DNA of 64,000 bases, from the NCBI GenBank assembly GCA_030706745.1, contig JAUZNX010000001.1:248001-312000 (forward strand), given 5' to 3'. The notes under the pieces were generated by a model that saw only the letters and a program-made list of their open reading frames with translations, searched no databases and had not been told where the DNA came from. Made by a program: the position numbers and the translations under genes. Shown in pieces: positions 23,207 to 63,916 of the stretch. Each line of letters begins with the position of its first letter. The stretch's first letter is position 1. The DNA is from Bacteroidota bacterium (lineage in GTDB: Bacteria; Bacteroidota; Ignavibacteria; Palsa-1295).

Positions 23207-23324
23207 AGTTTAGCCGGATTATGCTGATGATGCCGATTGCGAGGGTTGATTCTTCGGATGGCGGCTTGCCTGAAGAATTTGAGAGCTCTCTAACATACCT
23301 TGACGATGAATTGCGCCGATAAAT

Positions 23325-23394
23325 CGGATTACGCGAATAAGTCTAATCAATCCTGAAAATCAATCCGCGTAATCCGCATCATCCGTGTAATCCA
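23325..23394. repeat. Word-palindrome repeat, family A, copy 1
   Basis: A perfect 11-bp inverted repeat, CGGATTACGCG (23325-23335) with CGCGTAATCCG (23366-23376). The right arm continues with near-tandem copies of an AATCCGCGT-like word up to 23394. It lies between the stop of the outer-membrane protein gene and the purC start. The right arm is clearly similar to those at 34331 and 35181. Confidence 0.8.
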
Positions 23395-23402
23395 GGTTCT
23401 CC

Positions 23403-24218
23403 TTATTGAAATAATCCCAGAAACACTCCCAGACTTGCCACGAGTCCCGATCCATTGATGCCATCGAAAATCGGTCCGGGTCCAAGTGAAAGCCCCTGAT
23501 CGACAGTCCATGTCCCCATCGAGGTCCCCTGATAGCCTGCACTCAGACGAAGCATCATGTAACCCGTTGGCGAGTACTCGAATTGGATCTGCGGCATGTA
23601 GAGAAAGAAGTGCGACGTGTAGGTGTGGGTACGATAGAGATTCGAAGAATCGAACTCCTTGGTGAACTGGCCCACATCAAAATTCGATCGGTTCTGCGCC
23701 TGGCGGGCATAAATATCGACGCCGCCATAGCCAAGCGCCACGCCGGGTATGATATGAAACCGCCCGGTGCGGAGCGGCAACACGTAGTCGATCGTGAGCG
23801 CGGCGTACCCCACACTGTATGTCAGGTAGCGGTTCACGGCGATTCCCTGAATCGTATCATTTGTGCAACCGCAATCGCTACTGGTTCCACTCATACCCAT
23901 GCCACCGACGCGGACATTCTTGATCCACGGCAGTGTCACGAACCCGGCGCCGCCGATCATCCAGACCTGCTGGCGATAGTTCTGTTTGACGAACGGCTGG
24001 GCGACGTTCGTGTTGAACGTGGAGAAGTCCGGCATAAAATAGCCGCCTAACAATCCGCCGCCCACCGAGAAAAACGATGGCGACGTCTTATCTTCCTGAT
24101 ACAACTCTTCGTCATTCCAATGCGTCGTATCGCGCGTAATCTGCGCATGAACGCCGCGTGGAATGAAAGCCGCGAACGCGATCGCGATGACATAAATGGA
24201 ACGTCTGGAGAGATTCAT
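23403..24218 (-). CDS. Predicted outer-membrane beta-barrel protein
   Basis: The ATG at 24218 gives 271 residues with a signal peptide (RRSIYVIAIAFAAFIPRGVHAQ). The mature protein has alternating aromatic and glycine-rich strands (FFSVGGGLLGGYF, LTYSVGYAALTIDYVLPL, IIPGVALGYGGVDIY, PQIQFEYSPTGYMMLRL) and ends in ASLGVFLGLFQ with a terminal aromatic segment, as in PorT- or OMP_b-brl-type barrels. The specific role is unknown. It is divergent from the methyltransferase gene. Confidence 0.75.
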   Translation of the reverse strand: MNLSRRSIYVIAIAFAAFIPRGVHAQITRDTTHWNDEELYQEDKTSPSFFSVGGGLLGGYFMPDFSTFNTNVAQPFVKQNYRQQVWMIGGAGFVTLPWIKNVRVGGMGMSGTSSDCGCTNDTIQGIAVNRYLTYSVGYAALTIDYVLPLRTGRFHIIPGVALGYGGVDIYARQAQNRSNFDVGQFTKEFDSSNLYRTHTYTSHFFLYMPQIQFEYSPTGYMMLRLSAGYQGTSMGTWTVDQGLSLGPGPIFDGINGSGLVASLGVFLGLFQ

Positions 24219-29054: not shown

Positions 29055-29057
29055 TAA

Positions 29058-29113
29058 TGGATAGTTGATAGTTGATAGTGGGCAGCGCACTTTCCACTAT
29101 CCACTATCAACTA
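29058..29113. repeat. Word-palindrome repeat, family C, copy 1
   Basis: Inverted repeat built from GATAGT(T/G)G words. The left arm TAGTTGATAGTTGATAGTGG (29062-29081) pairs with 29094-29113 at 19 of 20 positions. It fills the space between two convergent genes, and its last three bases (CTA) are the stop codon of the minus-strand gene. The hairpin may act as a terminator, though there is no U-tract. Confidence 0.8.
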
Positions 29114-33918: not shown

Positions 33919-34191
33919 TTAGGCATTTTCCTTCATTTCCTTCGCGATCTCATCTTCAATCGCTTCTCGCAAAGCTGGGCGAATGAAGATAGTACCCAAA
34001 CCATACTCCGAGAGTCCACGGGCAAGCGTCCGAATCTTTTTCGGCACGGTGGCGCGGCGATTAAGCACGAGCAGCCGCTCCTCGCGTAACAGGCAATAGC
34101 CGCCATCGAAATTGCCGTTTTCGAACCGCAACTTGATGCCGAGTTCGGCCGCGAGCGATTTCAATTCTTCGAATAATTCTTCGTGAGTCAT
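33919..34191 (-). CDS. Small conserved-looking protein of unknown function
   Basis: A 90-residue soluble protein without signal or membrane segments. It contains LAAELGIKLRFENGNFDGGYC followed by LLREERLLVLNRRA and a helical tail LREAIEDEIAKEMKENA. The pattern GIKxRxExGxFDGGYCxxxxxxxxxxN recalls uncharacterised small proteins of the Chlorobi/Bacteroidota group, from memory only. It has coding-type composition and sits between two repeat elements in the minus-strand gene row. Confidence 0.65.
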   Translation of the reverse strand: MTHEELFEELKSLAAELGIKLRFENGNFDGGYCLLREERLLVLNRRATVPKKIRTLARGLSEYGLGTIFIRPALREAIEDEIAKEMKENA

Positions 34192-34202
34192 TTATGGAAG
34201 CT

Positions 34203-34386
34203 GGATTACGCGCATGATGCCGGCGCCAACTACGGCTTCGCCGGAATTCGCCGATTGATTTACAAGATTTTGTCGGAAGGCGTTCATCGGAATTTCCACC
34301 AAATCGCAAAGCGCGAGACCGAATCCGGAGAATCAATGCGCGAATTCCGGCGCAACCATGGTTGCGTTGCCACCATCTGCATAATC
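34203..34386. repeat. Word-palindrome repeat, family A, copy 2 (long, nested)
   Basis: The segments 34203-34260 and 34331-34386 are imperfect inverted copies about 57 bp long (for instance CCGGAATTCGC near the inner end of both). The right arm contains the inner palindrome GGCGCAACCATGGTTGCG, which is absent from copy 1. The element fills the gap between two minus-strand genes. Confidence 0.75.
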
Positions 34387-34392
34387 GTGGTT

Positions 34393-35103
34393 CTATTCCC
34401 CCAAATAGCGGACCGGAATCGGCGTCTCGAGAATAGCACTGTCTGCAAGTTCGACTTTGAAGGCTCTGGCACCGGCAACGGAACTGACCGCTTCGGCAAA
34501 TTTACCATCGATAAAGTGCAGCGCGGCGCCATCGTCGGCCGCGTATCCGGCCGGAAGGCCTTCCTGAATGAACTTGTGATACTGCGGCACTCGGTTTGGC
34601 TCGGTGTTGTAGTGTGGACAGTTGCTGCCGTTCACAAAACCGAGGCCATCATACAGGGGATCGAGATCGAGACTGAATGAATCGGTCACGCCACACTCGA
34701 ACCAGCAGAGCGATCCGGCGCTGGTGCCGCACATCACGATGCCCCGTTCATATGCTTCGCGCAGGATCTTATCCACTCCATGGACACGCCAGATCGCGAG
34801 CATATTCGCGGTGTTGCCGCCACCGACATAAATAGCGTCCTGCGCGAGCAGGAAGGAGCGAAGATCCTTAATGGTGCGAGCAAACAACTCCAGATGAGTC
34901 GCTTCGCAAAGATCCGGAGAGTACCGAGCGTAGAACCCTTGGATATATGACTGCGGGTCTCCGCTGGCGGTCGGAAGAAAACAGGCTCGCGGTCGCGACT
35001 TGCCGGTCAGACCGAGTATGAATTTTGCGGATAGTTTATTGGTCGGATCGGCCTGTAGCGAATCGCCGCCGAACGCAACAACATTCTTGAGCCTGGATTT
35101 CAC
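34393..35103 (-). CDS. Peptidase E-like protein (S51 family)
   Basis: A 236-residue protein of the dipeptidase E / class-I glutamine-amidotransferase-like fold. NVVAFGGDSLQ is followed by YVGGGNTANMLAIW and the nucleophile elbow GTSAGSLCWF, whose serine is the expected catalytic residue. NCPHYN may hold the catalytic histidine. S51 enzymes cut Asp-X dipeptides or cyanophycin. The GTG start at 35103 and codons for the first few residues fall inside a palindromic repeat arm. Confidence 0.88.
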   Translation of the reverse strand: MKSRLKNVVAFGGDSLQADPTNKLSAKFILGLTGKSRPRACFLPTASGDPQSYIQGFYARYSPDLCEATHLELFARTIKDLRSFLLAQDAIYVGGGNTANMLAIWRVHGVDKILREAYERGIVMCGTSAGSLCWFECGVTDSFSLDLDPLYDGLGFVNGSNCPHYNTEPNRVPQYHKFIQEGLPAGYAADDGAALHFIDGKFAEAVSSVAGARAFKVELADSAILETPIPVRYLGE

Positions 35104-35246
35104 GGATTGATTTATCGGATTGATTCGAGAACAATTCTGCTTCTATGATTCAACGGATAGCCATAATCGGTTATTCCGAAAAATCAATCCGCGAAATCCC
35201 GTGCAACTATGGTTGCGCGGCCATCATCTGCGTAATCCAGGTTCAG
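35095..35246. repeat. Word-palindrome repeat, family A, copy 3
   Basis: GGATTTCACGGATTGATTT (35095-35113) pairs with 35181-35199 at 18 of 19 positions. The right arm runs on to 35246 and is closely similar to 34331-34390, including a GCAACTATGGTTGC inner palindrome. The element lies between two divergent genes and overlaps the first codons of the peptidase E-like gene, so it cannot be a simple terminator. Confidence 0.8.
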
Positions 35247-35252
35247 CTTCTT

Positions 35253-36833
35253 ATGAAAGGTAATATTCTCTGGGTCGACGATGAAATCGATCTTCTCAAG
35301 CCGCATATTTTGCTGCTCGAAGGTCGTGGCTACGCGGTGCACACTGCCATGAGCGGTGAGGATGCACTCGCCATGGCGCAGGCCGAGACGCCGGATCTCG
35401 TGTTCCTGGATGAGAACATGCCGGGCATGGGCGGACTCGAAACGCTCGAAGCGCTCAAAGCCCAGCATCCCGATTTGCCGGTAGTGATGGTCACGAAGTC
35501 CGAAGAAGAAGACCTGATGGAGCAGGCGATCGGCAAGAAGATTTCGGATTACCTGACGAAGCCGGTCAATCCGACGCAAGTCCTGATCGCTGTCAAAAAG
35601 TTTTTGGAAGGCCGGCAGATTGTCGGGGAAGCCGTCTCACGCGATTACACGCAAGAGTTCGCGCGGACGGCCGTCGAGATGATGAACGCTCGCAACGCCG
35701 CAGATTGGACGCAACTCTATGCGAAGCTCGTTGGATGGGAAATGGAGCTTGATGAACATGGCGGGTTGGGCCTCAAACAAACGCTGCTCGACCAAAAGCG
35801 CGAGATGAATTCCGAGTTCGGAAAGTTCGTCGAGCGACATTATCAGTCTTGGGTCAACACAATCTACGTCGAGTCCAATCGGGACGAGCGCCCGGCAATG
35901 TCACCCGACCTGATCGATCAGTGGGTATTGCCGCCGCTCCAATCCGAAGTCAAGCAAAACGTGGTGTTCTTCGTGATCGACTGCCTCCGGTTGGATCAGT
36001 GGATCATCATGGAAAACGAGCTGCGCAATCTGTTCAAGATTACGCGCGATTATCACTTTGGCATTCTGCCGAGTGCGACACCGTATGCGCGCAATGCGAT
36101 CTTCTCCGGACTCTTCCCGTCCGAATTTGGCAAACTCTTCCCGCTAACATGGTCCTCGAGCGATGACGACGAGAACTCTCACAATCGCGATGAAGCGGCG
36201 ATGCTCCAGAAGTTGCTCGAGCGCAAGCGGATCAAGCTGCGACAAGAGCCGAAGTATATCAAGATCATCGATCGCGAGTATGGCGCGGGCATTGCCGATA
36301 ACATCACGCAACACGCCAAGAACCATCTGACCGCGATCGTCGTGAATTTCGTGGATATGCTCGCACATACTCGGAGCGACTCGCCAATCCTAAAGGAAAT
36401 TGCGCCGGACGAAAGCGCATATCGCTCGCTGACGCGCTCGTGGTTTTTGCATTCGAGCTTATTCGACATGTTCAAGGCGCTCGCCACCGTGCCGAACCTC
36501 AAGATTATTGTTTCGACCGATCATGGCTCTATTCGCAGCCTGCGCGGCGCGAAAGTTCTGGGGGACCGCGAGACTTCTACCAGTCTTCGCTATAAATATG
36601 GCCGCAATGTGAAAGCCGAAGAGAAGCAAGCGATGATCATCAAGCGGCCGGAAGACTTCAAGCTGCCACACCGAGGCGCAGCATCGAACTATATTATCGC
36701 CAAGGAAGACTACTATTTCATCTATCCGACCGATTACCATAAGTACTTGAACTACTACCGCGACACCTTCCAGCACGGCGGCATCTCGATGGAGGAAATG
36801 ATTTTGCCGGTGGTGACACTAGAAGGGAAATAG
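35253..36833 (+). CDS. porX: T9SS response regulator PorX (receiver plus PglZ domain)
   Basis: PorX controls expression of T9SS genes in Bacteroidota together with the kinase PorY and the sigma factor SigP. The ATG at 35253 gives 526 residues: a CheY-type receiver (1-120) with acidic pair WVDDE, phospho-acceptor Asp53 (VFLDENMPGMGG), Thr81 and Lys103 (YLTKPV). A linker and a PglZ/alkaline-phosphatase-like domain follow (VVFFVIDCLRLDQW with its metal aspartate; IVSTDHGSIRS). The frame is open to 35145, but this is the repeat. No porY is in the window. tsaE follows after 23 bp. Confidence 0.93.
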   Translation: MKGNILWVDDEIDLLKPHILLLEGRGYAVHTAMSGEDALAMAQAETPDLVFLDENMPGMGGLETLEALKAQHPDLPVVMVTKSEEEDLMEQAIGKKISDYLTKPVNPTQVLIAVKKFLEGRQIVGEAVSRDYTQEFARTAVEMMNARNAADWTQLYAKLVGWEMELDEHGGLGLKQTLLDQKREMNSEFGKFVERHYQSWVNTIYVESNRDERPAMSPDLIDQWVLPPLQSEVKQNVVFFVIDCLRLDQWIIMENELRNLFKITRDYHFGILPSATPYARNAIFSGLFPSEFGKLFPLTWSSSDDDENSHNRDEAAMLQKLLERKRIKLRQEPKYIKIIDREYGAGIADNITQHAKNHLTAIVVNFVDMLAHTRSDSPILKEIAPDESAYRSLTRSWFLHSSLFDMFKALATVPNLKIIVSTDHGSIRSLRGAKVLGDRETSTSLRYKYGRNVKAEEKQAMIIKRPEDFKLPHRGAASNYIIAKEDYYFIYPTDYHKYLNYYRDTFQHGGISMEEMILPVVTLEGK

Positions 36834-48180: not shown

Positions 48181-48257
48181 GGATAGTGGATAGTGGATCG
48201 TGGAATCGATAGTCTTCGGTTCACTTTTCGTTCTCCTCTATCCACTATCAACTATCC
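48181..48257. repeat. Word-palindrome repeat, family C, copy 2
   Basis: GGATAGTGGATAGTGGAT (48181-48198) pairs with 48240-48257 at 17 of 18 positions, the same GATAGTG words as at 29058. It lies between divergent genes and ends 8 bp before the GTG start of ugd, so it would be in the 5' leader of that gene. Read in the ugd frame it adds a false N-terminal extension. Confidence 0.8.
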
Positions 48258-48265
48258 ACTACTCC

Positions 48266-61525: not shown

Positions 61526-63916
61526 TTAATGCTCCGAACGCCAGCCTTTGCCACCAAAGACAAAGTGATACGCACCGCTGAGCGGGACCAACACGTTGGC
61601 ACCTCCCACATAGACGCTGACGCCATCGAGGTCATCTGTCATCACAATCATTTCCTGGCCATTCACCACTTGGGATAATGGAAGGCTGAGTGTTGCCGGA
61701 GAACCAGGAATACCATTCGACTGCACGTTCGTCACAACCGAGGTAGCGGCTATAACTGCGCCGCTCGCGACAGATTGATAGTTGTGGTATAGCCCGCCAT
61801 TGCCTCCCGAGACCGTCGCGATCTGTTGGTCCACATAAAGCTTTGTTGCGGCGTCGCTATCGTTGATCGGTGTGGCAAGCTCCGTGATCGAATGGTGGTT
61901 CATGTTGAAGTTGCCACCAAAGATCGAAGTCCCAAAGACATTGAGCGTACCACCAATAAACGTGTTGCCTGTCAGCGCATTAACGACGAACTGGTTATTG
62001 GAAATCGAAATATTGCCAGTCGAAATCAGTGTACCGCCGATATAGGTGTTACCATTCGATGCGTTGATATTAAACATATTGTTCGCCACCGAGAAGTTGC
62101 CCCCAAGGTTGAAGATGCCTCCAACGCTGATCGTGTTCGTCAGATTGGTGATCGCGAACATTCCGTTGTTGATGTTGATATCACCAGCAATCGAAGTCGT
62201 ATGGTTCGCAACATTCACAATAAACTGGTTATTCGCAACGGAGAAGTTGCCTCCGGAATTGAGCGTTCCGAACACGTTGGTATTGCCAGTGGCGCCAAAC
62301 ACGGTGAACATGCCATTGTTGATATTCAGGTTTCCGGCGAAGGAGGTGTTGCCGGTCAACGCGTTAACGATAAACATGTTGTTCGCGACCGACAAGTTGC
62401 CGACAGTGTTGAATGTGCCGAAGACGTTCGTGTTGCCCGTCGCACCAAACACCGTGAACATGCCATTGTTGATGTTCAAGTTTCCGGCAAACGAAGTATT
62501 GCCGGTCAGTGCATTGACGATGAACATGTTGTTTGCGACCGACAAGTTGCCGCCCGAGTTGAACGTGCCGAACACATTCGTGTTGCCAGTCGCGCCGAGC
62601 ACGGTAAACATCCCATTGTTGATCGTCAGATTGCCAAGGAACGACGTGTTGCCATTCAGTGCATTGACGATGAACATGTTGTTCGCAACCGACAGATTGC
62701 CGACGGAGTTGAATGTGCCGGAGACATTCGTATTTCCGGTTGCTCCGAGCACGGTGAACATCCCGTTGTTGATCGTGAGATTGCCGTGAAAGGACGTGTT
62801 GCCGTTCAAGGCATTGACGATGAACATGTTGTTTGCGACCGACAGGTTGCCGATAGAGTTGAACGTGCCGGAAACATTCGTATTTCCAGTCGCTCCAAAA
62901 ACGGTGAACATGCCGTTATTGATGTTCACGTCGCCCGTCGAAGCGATGATGCTGATCATCCCGTTATTGATGTTCAAATCGCCCAGGAATGAGGTGTTTC
63001 CATTGAGCGCATTGACAATGAACATGTTGTTCGCGACCGAAAGATTGCCGCCAGAGTTGAACGTCCCGAAAATGTTCGTATTGCCCGTGCCTCCGAACAC
63101 GGTGAACATCCCGTTGTTAATATTCACATCGCCGGTCGAGCCAAGCACCGTGAACATGCCATTATTGATGTTCAAATCGCCGAAGAATGATGTGTTGCCG
63201 TTAAAGGCGTTGACGATGAACTGATTATTCGCGACGGAGAAATTACCGCCGGAGTTGAACGTACCCGAGACATTCGTATTTCCGGTTGCGCCCAATACAG
63301 TGAACATCCCATTGTTAATTGTAAGGTTGTTCGTGAGCGAAAGATTGAAGAAGCCCGGTGATGAGGTGATCGCGATGTCCTGCGGCGTGCCGAAGGTGAT
63401 CGTTCCGGCGGAGTCGGTCAGCAGCAACTGATTCGGCGTGCCGCCAATCATCAGATCGGAACCGACGCCAGATAGCGGATGGCCGTTGATCATGACGTCC
63501 GCAATGTAGTCCGTTGCCATCTTGCTCGCCGTGATCGAACTATCGACGATGGACAGAGCATACGGTGAGGAGGACAGCGCAGTTCGTGGAAACAGCTCCG
63601 CTCCACCATCGATGGAAATGCCCAGCCACAGTGGCACCGACATCTGCGGCAGTGGCTGTTGCGAACCGAGCTGGACCATGAAGAGGCCCGACTGAATGGA
63701 CGCGCTGAATGTGTCCTCCCACACCAGGTCCGAGCCTGTCGCCGAACTGTAGAGCCGGATCGTCAAGGAATACGAGCCATTGACCGGAAGTCCGGAACTC
63801 TGGATGACCCCTTGATAGGTAATCGTGCGAGGCACATTCTGTGATTGCGCGGCATGAGTCAGAAAAAGGGCGATACATGCTACGCAATACGAGGCAACTC
63901 GTGAAAGCTTGAACAT
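61526..63916 (-). CDS. Fibre-like protein with 50-residue NNGMF repeats
   Basis: A 796-residue secreted protein (signal SYCVACIALFLTHAAQSQ) with the shared module PRTITYQGVIQSSGLPVNG, IRLYSSATGS, VPLWLGISI, LSSSPYALS and, like the gene at 54073, TDYIADVMINGHPLSG. It has eight or so 50-residue units containing INNGMFTVLGATGNTN and VANNMFIVNALNGNTSF. Two half-units of 16 residues and degenerate units occur too. Near the end SITELATPINDSDAATKLYV matches a phage tail-fibre segment. The C-terminus is YHFVFGGKGWRSEH. Probably a trimeric beta-fibre. No T9SS tail. Confidence 0.85.
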   Translation of the reverse strand: MFKLSRVASYCVACIALFLTHAAQSQNVPRTITYQGVIQSSGLPVNGSYSLTIRLYSSATGSDLVWEDTFSASIQSGLFMVQLGSQQPLPQMSVPLWLGISIDGGAELFPRTALSSSPYALSIVDSSITASKMATDYIADVMINGHPLSGVGSDLMIGGTPNQLLLTDSAGTITFGTPQDIAITSSPGFFNLSLTNNLTINNGMFTVLGATGNTNVSGTFNSGGNFSVANNQFIVNAFNGNTSFFGDLNINNGMFTVLGSTGDVNINNGMFTVFGGTGNTNIFGTFNSGGNLSVANNMFIVNALNGNTSFLGDLNINNGMISIIASTGDVNINNGMFTVFGATGNTNVSGTFNSIGNLSVANNMFIVNALNGNTSFHGNLTINNGMFTVLGATGNTNVSGTFNSVGNLSVANNMFIVNALNGNTSFLGNLTINNGMFTVLGATGNTNVFGTFNSGGNLSVANNMFIVNALTGNTSFAGNLNINNGMFTVFGATGNTNVFGTFNTVGNLSVANNMFIVNALTGNTSFAGNLNINNGMFTVFGATGNTNVFGTLNSGGNFSVANNQFIVNVANHTTSIAGDININNGMFAITNLTNTISVGGIFNLGGNFSVANNMFNINASNGNTYIGGTLISTGNISISNNQFVVNALTGNTFIGGTLNVFGTSIFGGNFNMNHHSITELATPINDSDAATKLYVDQQIATVSGGNGGLYHNYQSVASGAVIAATSVVTNVQSNGIPGSPATLSLPLSQVVNGQEMIVMTDDLDGVSVYVGGANVLVPLSGAYHFVFGGKGWRSEH
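61900..63340 (-). repeat. 150-bp tandem coding repeats (NNGMF solenoid)
   Basis: The segment encoding VANNMFIVNAL recurs at about 62370, 62520, 62670 and 62820 (period 150 bp), then at about 63020 and 63220 where a half-unit is inserted. Copies are very similar at nucleotide level, suggesting recent expansion or gene conversion. Confidence 0.9.

Follow-up and report, generated by a model that had tools for sequence, protein, structure and literature searches.

A very small, probably mobile palindrome nested in several unrelated hairpin-forming repeats of a Bacteroidota lineage

The means by which very short palindromes spread through bacterial chromosomes are a long-standing question, and the locus considered here poses it in a compact form: two of three copies of an intergenic inverted repeat, family A, contain a palindrome at the same place, whereas the third reads straight through. 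Was one insertion multiplied together with its host, as an earlier note on this DNA had proposed, or did the palindrome enter repeats that were already there? The copies lie in the window, by which we mean the whole stretch of 64,000 nucleotides analysed (contig JAUZNX010000001.1, positions 248,001 to 312,000), from a lineage of soil bacteria related to the Kapabacteria. We consider it probable that the palindrome is a very small mobile hairpin, of some 20-24 bp, which has made many separate entries into pre-existing hairpin-forming intergenic repeats.

Copy 1 (23307-23398; arms 23307-23338 and 23363-23394) is an empty inverted repeat with a DNA fold z of -2.35. Copy 2 (34197-34392) is intergenic; its left end is touched by the start codon of a minus-strand gene taken from the open reading frame list (33919-34191), and between it and copy 3 runs a Peptidase_S51 gene, also on the minus strand (34393-35103; PF03575, 3.5e-48). 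Copy 3 (35095-35244), the arms of which are 92% complementary and the fold z of which is -4.80, fills the divergent spacer between the S51 peptidase gene and a plus-strand gene of PorX-like architecture encoding a response regulator and a PglZ domain (35253-36833; PF00072, 1.1e-26; PF08665, 8.4e-16), which begins 9 bp beyond the repeat. In the alignment of the right arms, one block (D11) joins 23351-23375, 34324-34348 and 35175-35199 of copies 1, 2 and 3, respectively, and a second (D15) joins 23377-23407 of copy 1 to 35222-35252 of copy 3. Between the two blocks, copy 1 has a single base (23376) and copy 3 has 22 (35200-35221, CGTGCAACTATGGTTGCGCGGC), and there are likewise 22 bases at the matching place in copy 2 (34349-34370, GGCGCAACCATGGTTGCGTTGC); the extra stretch of about 22 bp that had been noticed at one site of copies 2 and 3, and that copy 1 lacks, is therefore confirmed by the block alignment. 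Its core reads GCAAC(C/T)ATGGTTGC, and lies at 34352-34365 in copy 2 (GCAACCATGGTTGC; model match E = 2.7e-5) and at 35203-35216 in copy 3 (GCAACTATGGTTGC; E = 2.3e-5). Copy 2 bears the palindrome in both arms (the arm pair 34227-34274/34317-34364, of 48 nt, is 75% complementary), that of the left arm being decayed: at 34220-34244 (CCGGCGCCAACTACGGCTTCGCCGG), the outer stem CCGGCG/CGCCGG is intact and the core has diverged. Allowing up to two mismatches, the palindromic 14-mer occurs six times in the window (both strands) against 0.81 expected, and none of 100 shuffles reached six.

The unit consists of a conserved 14-bp dyad core and three to five variable outer pairs, giving about 20-24 bp in all. 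The outer stems vary from copy to copy (GGC/GCC, GTC/GAC and CTTTC/GAAAG), and the six flank positions contain 72 Watson-Crick pairs as against 50.5 after shuffling (P = 5e-5), with a covariation score of 0.208 against 0.109 and slid controls of 0.073 or less; related copies inflate these tests, and a reduced set of 19 copies gave the same Watson-Crick outcome. The host and palindrome between rpmF and plsX fold together into a hairpin that bears a side branch. In the decayed copies at 34220-34244 and on C25 of the window genome (G000), the core drifts whereas the outer stem stays perfect, which suggests that the stem is corrected by template switching.

The genomes compared are metagenome-assembled. 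The exact 15-mer GCAACCATGGTTGCG is found in G000, in its sister species (G001) and in G006, with zero occurrences in G002-G005, and it gave one match, in coding DNA, among 54 other relatives; one-mismatch control counts are low, and they rule out chance for the exact core. Copy number is also low, at about 12 per genome. With host types and insert ends classified by eye, 18 of the 23 copies on our non-coding list lie in repeat hosts of five types: ten in family A, three in GTGGATGA/ATGAT-type hairpins, two in GTGCTGA heptamer repeats, two in one GAGTAAC repeat and one in an AATGATG repeat. This tally leaves five copies without a host type, C11 and C19 having been given no host. The search for the palindrome away from family A that the earlier note had proposed thus finds it in four unrelated host types, and a few copies stand alone outside any host repeat. 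Within family A, the insert site is constant, at the boundary of words 2 and 3. In the element L084, the left arm is filled and the right arm empty. One of the listed GTGCTGA copies actually lies in coding sequence, in frame, where methionyl-tRNA synthetase (MetRS) has the linker between its anticodon and tRNA-binding domains (L065 1470-1560, G001 C149; L298 280-345, G000 C6); repeat and palindrome are kept there in both sister species and are absent from the other congeners. The covariance model recovers further decayed copies, among them one in a family A arm (G000 C25) and one following GTGCTGA words on G000 C12. It also gives a strong match on G003 C37 that falls in what seems to be the end of a gene, and this match is not counted. 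Close to an apparent gene end on the same contig (L281 198-223), G003, a congener without the exact core, has a perfect palindrome of 26 bp (TCGAACGCAACCGAGGTTGCGTTCGA). Near-matches in coding DNA (e.g. L107, L060, L164-L166, L175, L176 and L178) were left out of account, being probably due to chance. In Rfam, only a tRNA was matched in the window, and the palindrome matched no curated RNA family; a viral origin was considered and discarded, the 20-bp palindrome being absent from IMG/VR.

The intergenic inverted repeat of family A, with the arm consensus GAACCTGGATTACGCGGATTnnnnGGATTACGCGGACGATTTTnGGATT, is common to a genus of Kapabacteria-type Bacteroidota; in one search, it was present in every genus member examined but G002, and the named relatives of its lineage are metagenome-assembled genomes labelled Kapaibacterium, Ignavibacteriae or Bacteroidetes. 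A GTDB scan, which took in four of the genus's species and also genomes outside it, gave about 44 family A copies containing the exact 20-mer, and only one of them carries the palindrome; in its canonical form the host is thus empty, and the palindrome is a separate unit, younger than family A. As a separate observation, family A-like 20-mer arms are also seen in L130 and L137, from a metagenome-assembled genome that carries the label Fibrobacteres; either the bin could be mixed or this type of host repeat could cross phyla.

Filled and empty orthologous sites were located by flank mapping between G000 and G001, sisters in which MetRS is 90% identical; the window loci compared are copies 2 and 3. 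For copy 3, the host is present in the sister (G001 C194) with a 20-bp gap in place of the palindrome, and for copy 2 the left arm is present at C194 and empty, the right arm not being recognizable. The host at C1:219494 is likewise empty in the sister, with a gap of 19 bp; at C12 and C3, it is present in G001 and the palindrome is absent, and at C4 the sister retains a rearranged family A arm, also empty. The reciprocal case is seen between rpmF and plsX, where both sisters have the AATGATG hairpin and only G001 has the palindrome, leaving a clean 15-bp gap. None of the pairs compared between the sisters shows a target duplication. The loci upstream of greA and in MetRS are filled in both sisters, with decay; thus, not all insertions are recent. 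Two outgroups have the host without the palindrome: family A at the C12 locus in G003, and the GTGCTGA hairpin upstream of greA in G004. Since the host itself is absent at most outgroup loci, polarity rests on these two loci and the wide survey. Gain of the palindrome is the simplest reading of the orthologous sites, and these sequence comparisons support the view that the hosts came first and that the palindrome reached several loci separately. Because the sister species hold the same host repeats without it, even units of about 20 letters can spread. In two further intergenic slots, the sisters carry hairpin repeats that are unrelated to each other (L217, G000 C21, and L174, G001 C61; L220, G000 C1, and L067, G001 C175).

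The proposal that the palindrome was inserted once, into a single family A copy, and that the composite was then amplified draws on its identical position in copies 2 and 3. However, the sister's hosts at both window loci are present and empty, hosts of five types are involved and no filled subfamily is apparent: in a small hand-made alignment, the identity of family A hosts is 0.776 among filled copies and 0.804 between filled and empty copies (permutation P = 0.79). As filled hosts are no closer to each other and their orthologues are empty, single insertion followed by amplification is not supported, and we regard it as highly improbable. The idea of a small hairpin inserted into another repeat is supported, and the palindrome does occur outside family A; the further idea that it was inserted before copying is not supported. 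Gene conversion would require few initial entries, after which homologous exchange within a family would carry the palindrome from filled to empty copies, entries into other families being rare separate events. It would accommodate both the constant words 2/3 boundary in family A and the flank TCTGR..YCAGA shared by the two known GTGCTGA composites of G000 and G001 (greA and MetRS), but the outer stems are unlike between copies, filled family A copies are no more alike than empty ones, and entry into unrelated hosts is left unexplained; overall, we think it unlikely.

Palindromes are prone to deletion, and an ancestral palindrome that was repeatedly lost, as the earlier note had allowed for copy 1, might be read into the greA and MetRS loci, filled in both sisters and decayed in one. 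Many precise losses would then be required, with only one filled family A copy in about 44 and an empty outgroup host at C12, and this history appears very doubtful. Equally hard to credit is a protein-binding site, a dyad operator that separate selection would have produced at each location without any movement: the dyad core is indeed conserved between variable flanks, and some copies lie near gene starts (35203-35216 in the window has a start codon about 37 bp away), yet the copies sit in repeat hosts rather than at fixed promoter distances, one is in frame in a tRNA synthetase linker, and the gaps in the sister species are clean and length-matched.

Returning to a mobile hairpin that enters existing repeats, such a unit would belong to the lineage that the window species shares with its sister, entering at the boundaries of host words, without visible target duplication, and adding 15-22 bp. 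Because no target duplication, GTAG or CGTC tag or adjacent transposase was found, its mode of movement is something that we infer. It may move as a folded single strand, joining or being copied at places where, as the chromosome replicates, host hairpins expose single-stranded DNA; the outer stem would then be kept palindromic by template switching inside the hairpin. We suggest, tentatively, that the target could be a structure (an opened hairpin or word-repeat DNA) and not a sequence, the unit being perhaps a parasite of other repeats, about 20 nt long, that enters unrelated families and whose stem template switching then keeps perfect. No fixed target tetranucleotide was found at the insertions, and GTAG and CGTC each occur within 10 bp of one of the 23 copies (2.4 expected), i.e. 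at chance level. The resident Y1/HUH transposases are candidate movers. Y1 genes are present in all seven genomes, palindrome-bearing or not, and a Y1/RAYT link was rejected: no compared Y1 gene obviously tracked the presence of the palindrome, and none of 20 Y1 loci is flanked by it, the sole near-match being inside the gene itself.

The closest parallels are with other small repeats. REP families, the GTAG- and CGTC-tagged palindromes, and the REPINs with RAYTs comprise extragenic palindromes of 20-40 bp (PMC3733652, PMC3116915), and some, e.g. GTAG-23 of T. roseum, are nested in other palindromes that are also found empty (PMC3733652). The present palindrome resembles them in its size, its dispersal (about 12 copies in each genome, most of them non-coding) and its nesting in palindromes that occur empty; however, it has neither tetranucleotide at one end, flanks no RAYT gene and is low in copy number, unlike REPs and REPINs with RAYTs. 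MITEs have terminal inverted repeats and target-site duplications, which are not seen here, the filled/empty pairs having no duplicated target. By description, it is like the very small mobile repeats of SDR (small dispersed repeat) type in having filled and empty orthologous sites: as summarized in PMC4390886, which cites Elhai et al. 2008, Nostoc SDR5 appears mobile and inserts between bases 3 and 4 of HIP1. In that summary, SDR5 is similarly tiny and has a fixed site within a second repeat, but it differs in phylum and apparently in sequence, and the palindrome described here occupies a number of unrelated hosts, each of them a hairpin repeat. The GC clusters of yeast mitochondria and the hairpin elements of sponge mitochondria are also small palindromes that are present or absent between relatives (PMC4478555, PMC2800124); the yeast clusters have AG/ACT duplications (PMC4478555), whereas none is seen in ours, which is on a bacterial chromosome. 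The palindrome behaves like nested REPs, SDR5 and yeast GC clusters, yet lacks the tag and the RAYT that define REPs. Palindromic elements of Rickettsia, which are longer, can sit in frame in coding genes. The MetRS linker copy is comparable, but is a single locus and includes the host repeat. In the sister pair, orthologous sites are filled in one species and empty in the other, in both directions; together with the several unrelated hosts and the covarying stem, this makes transposase, gene conversion and template switching models testable by sequencing close strains.

Other repeats were observed in the same DNA. The heptamer-word repeat TAGTTGATAGTTGATAGTGG and its complement occur in opposite orientation at 29055-29081 and 48235-48261 of the window, and a long minus-strand open reading frame contains, at 62055-63332, 150/198-bp units repeated in tandem with 70-80% similarity. 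About 20 places in G000 match another, separate dispersed repeat, some 90 bp long (...GGGTCGAACAACGTTGTAATAGATGGAAGGGGT...; L075, about 1120-1230).
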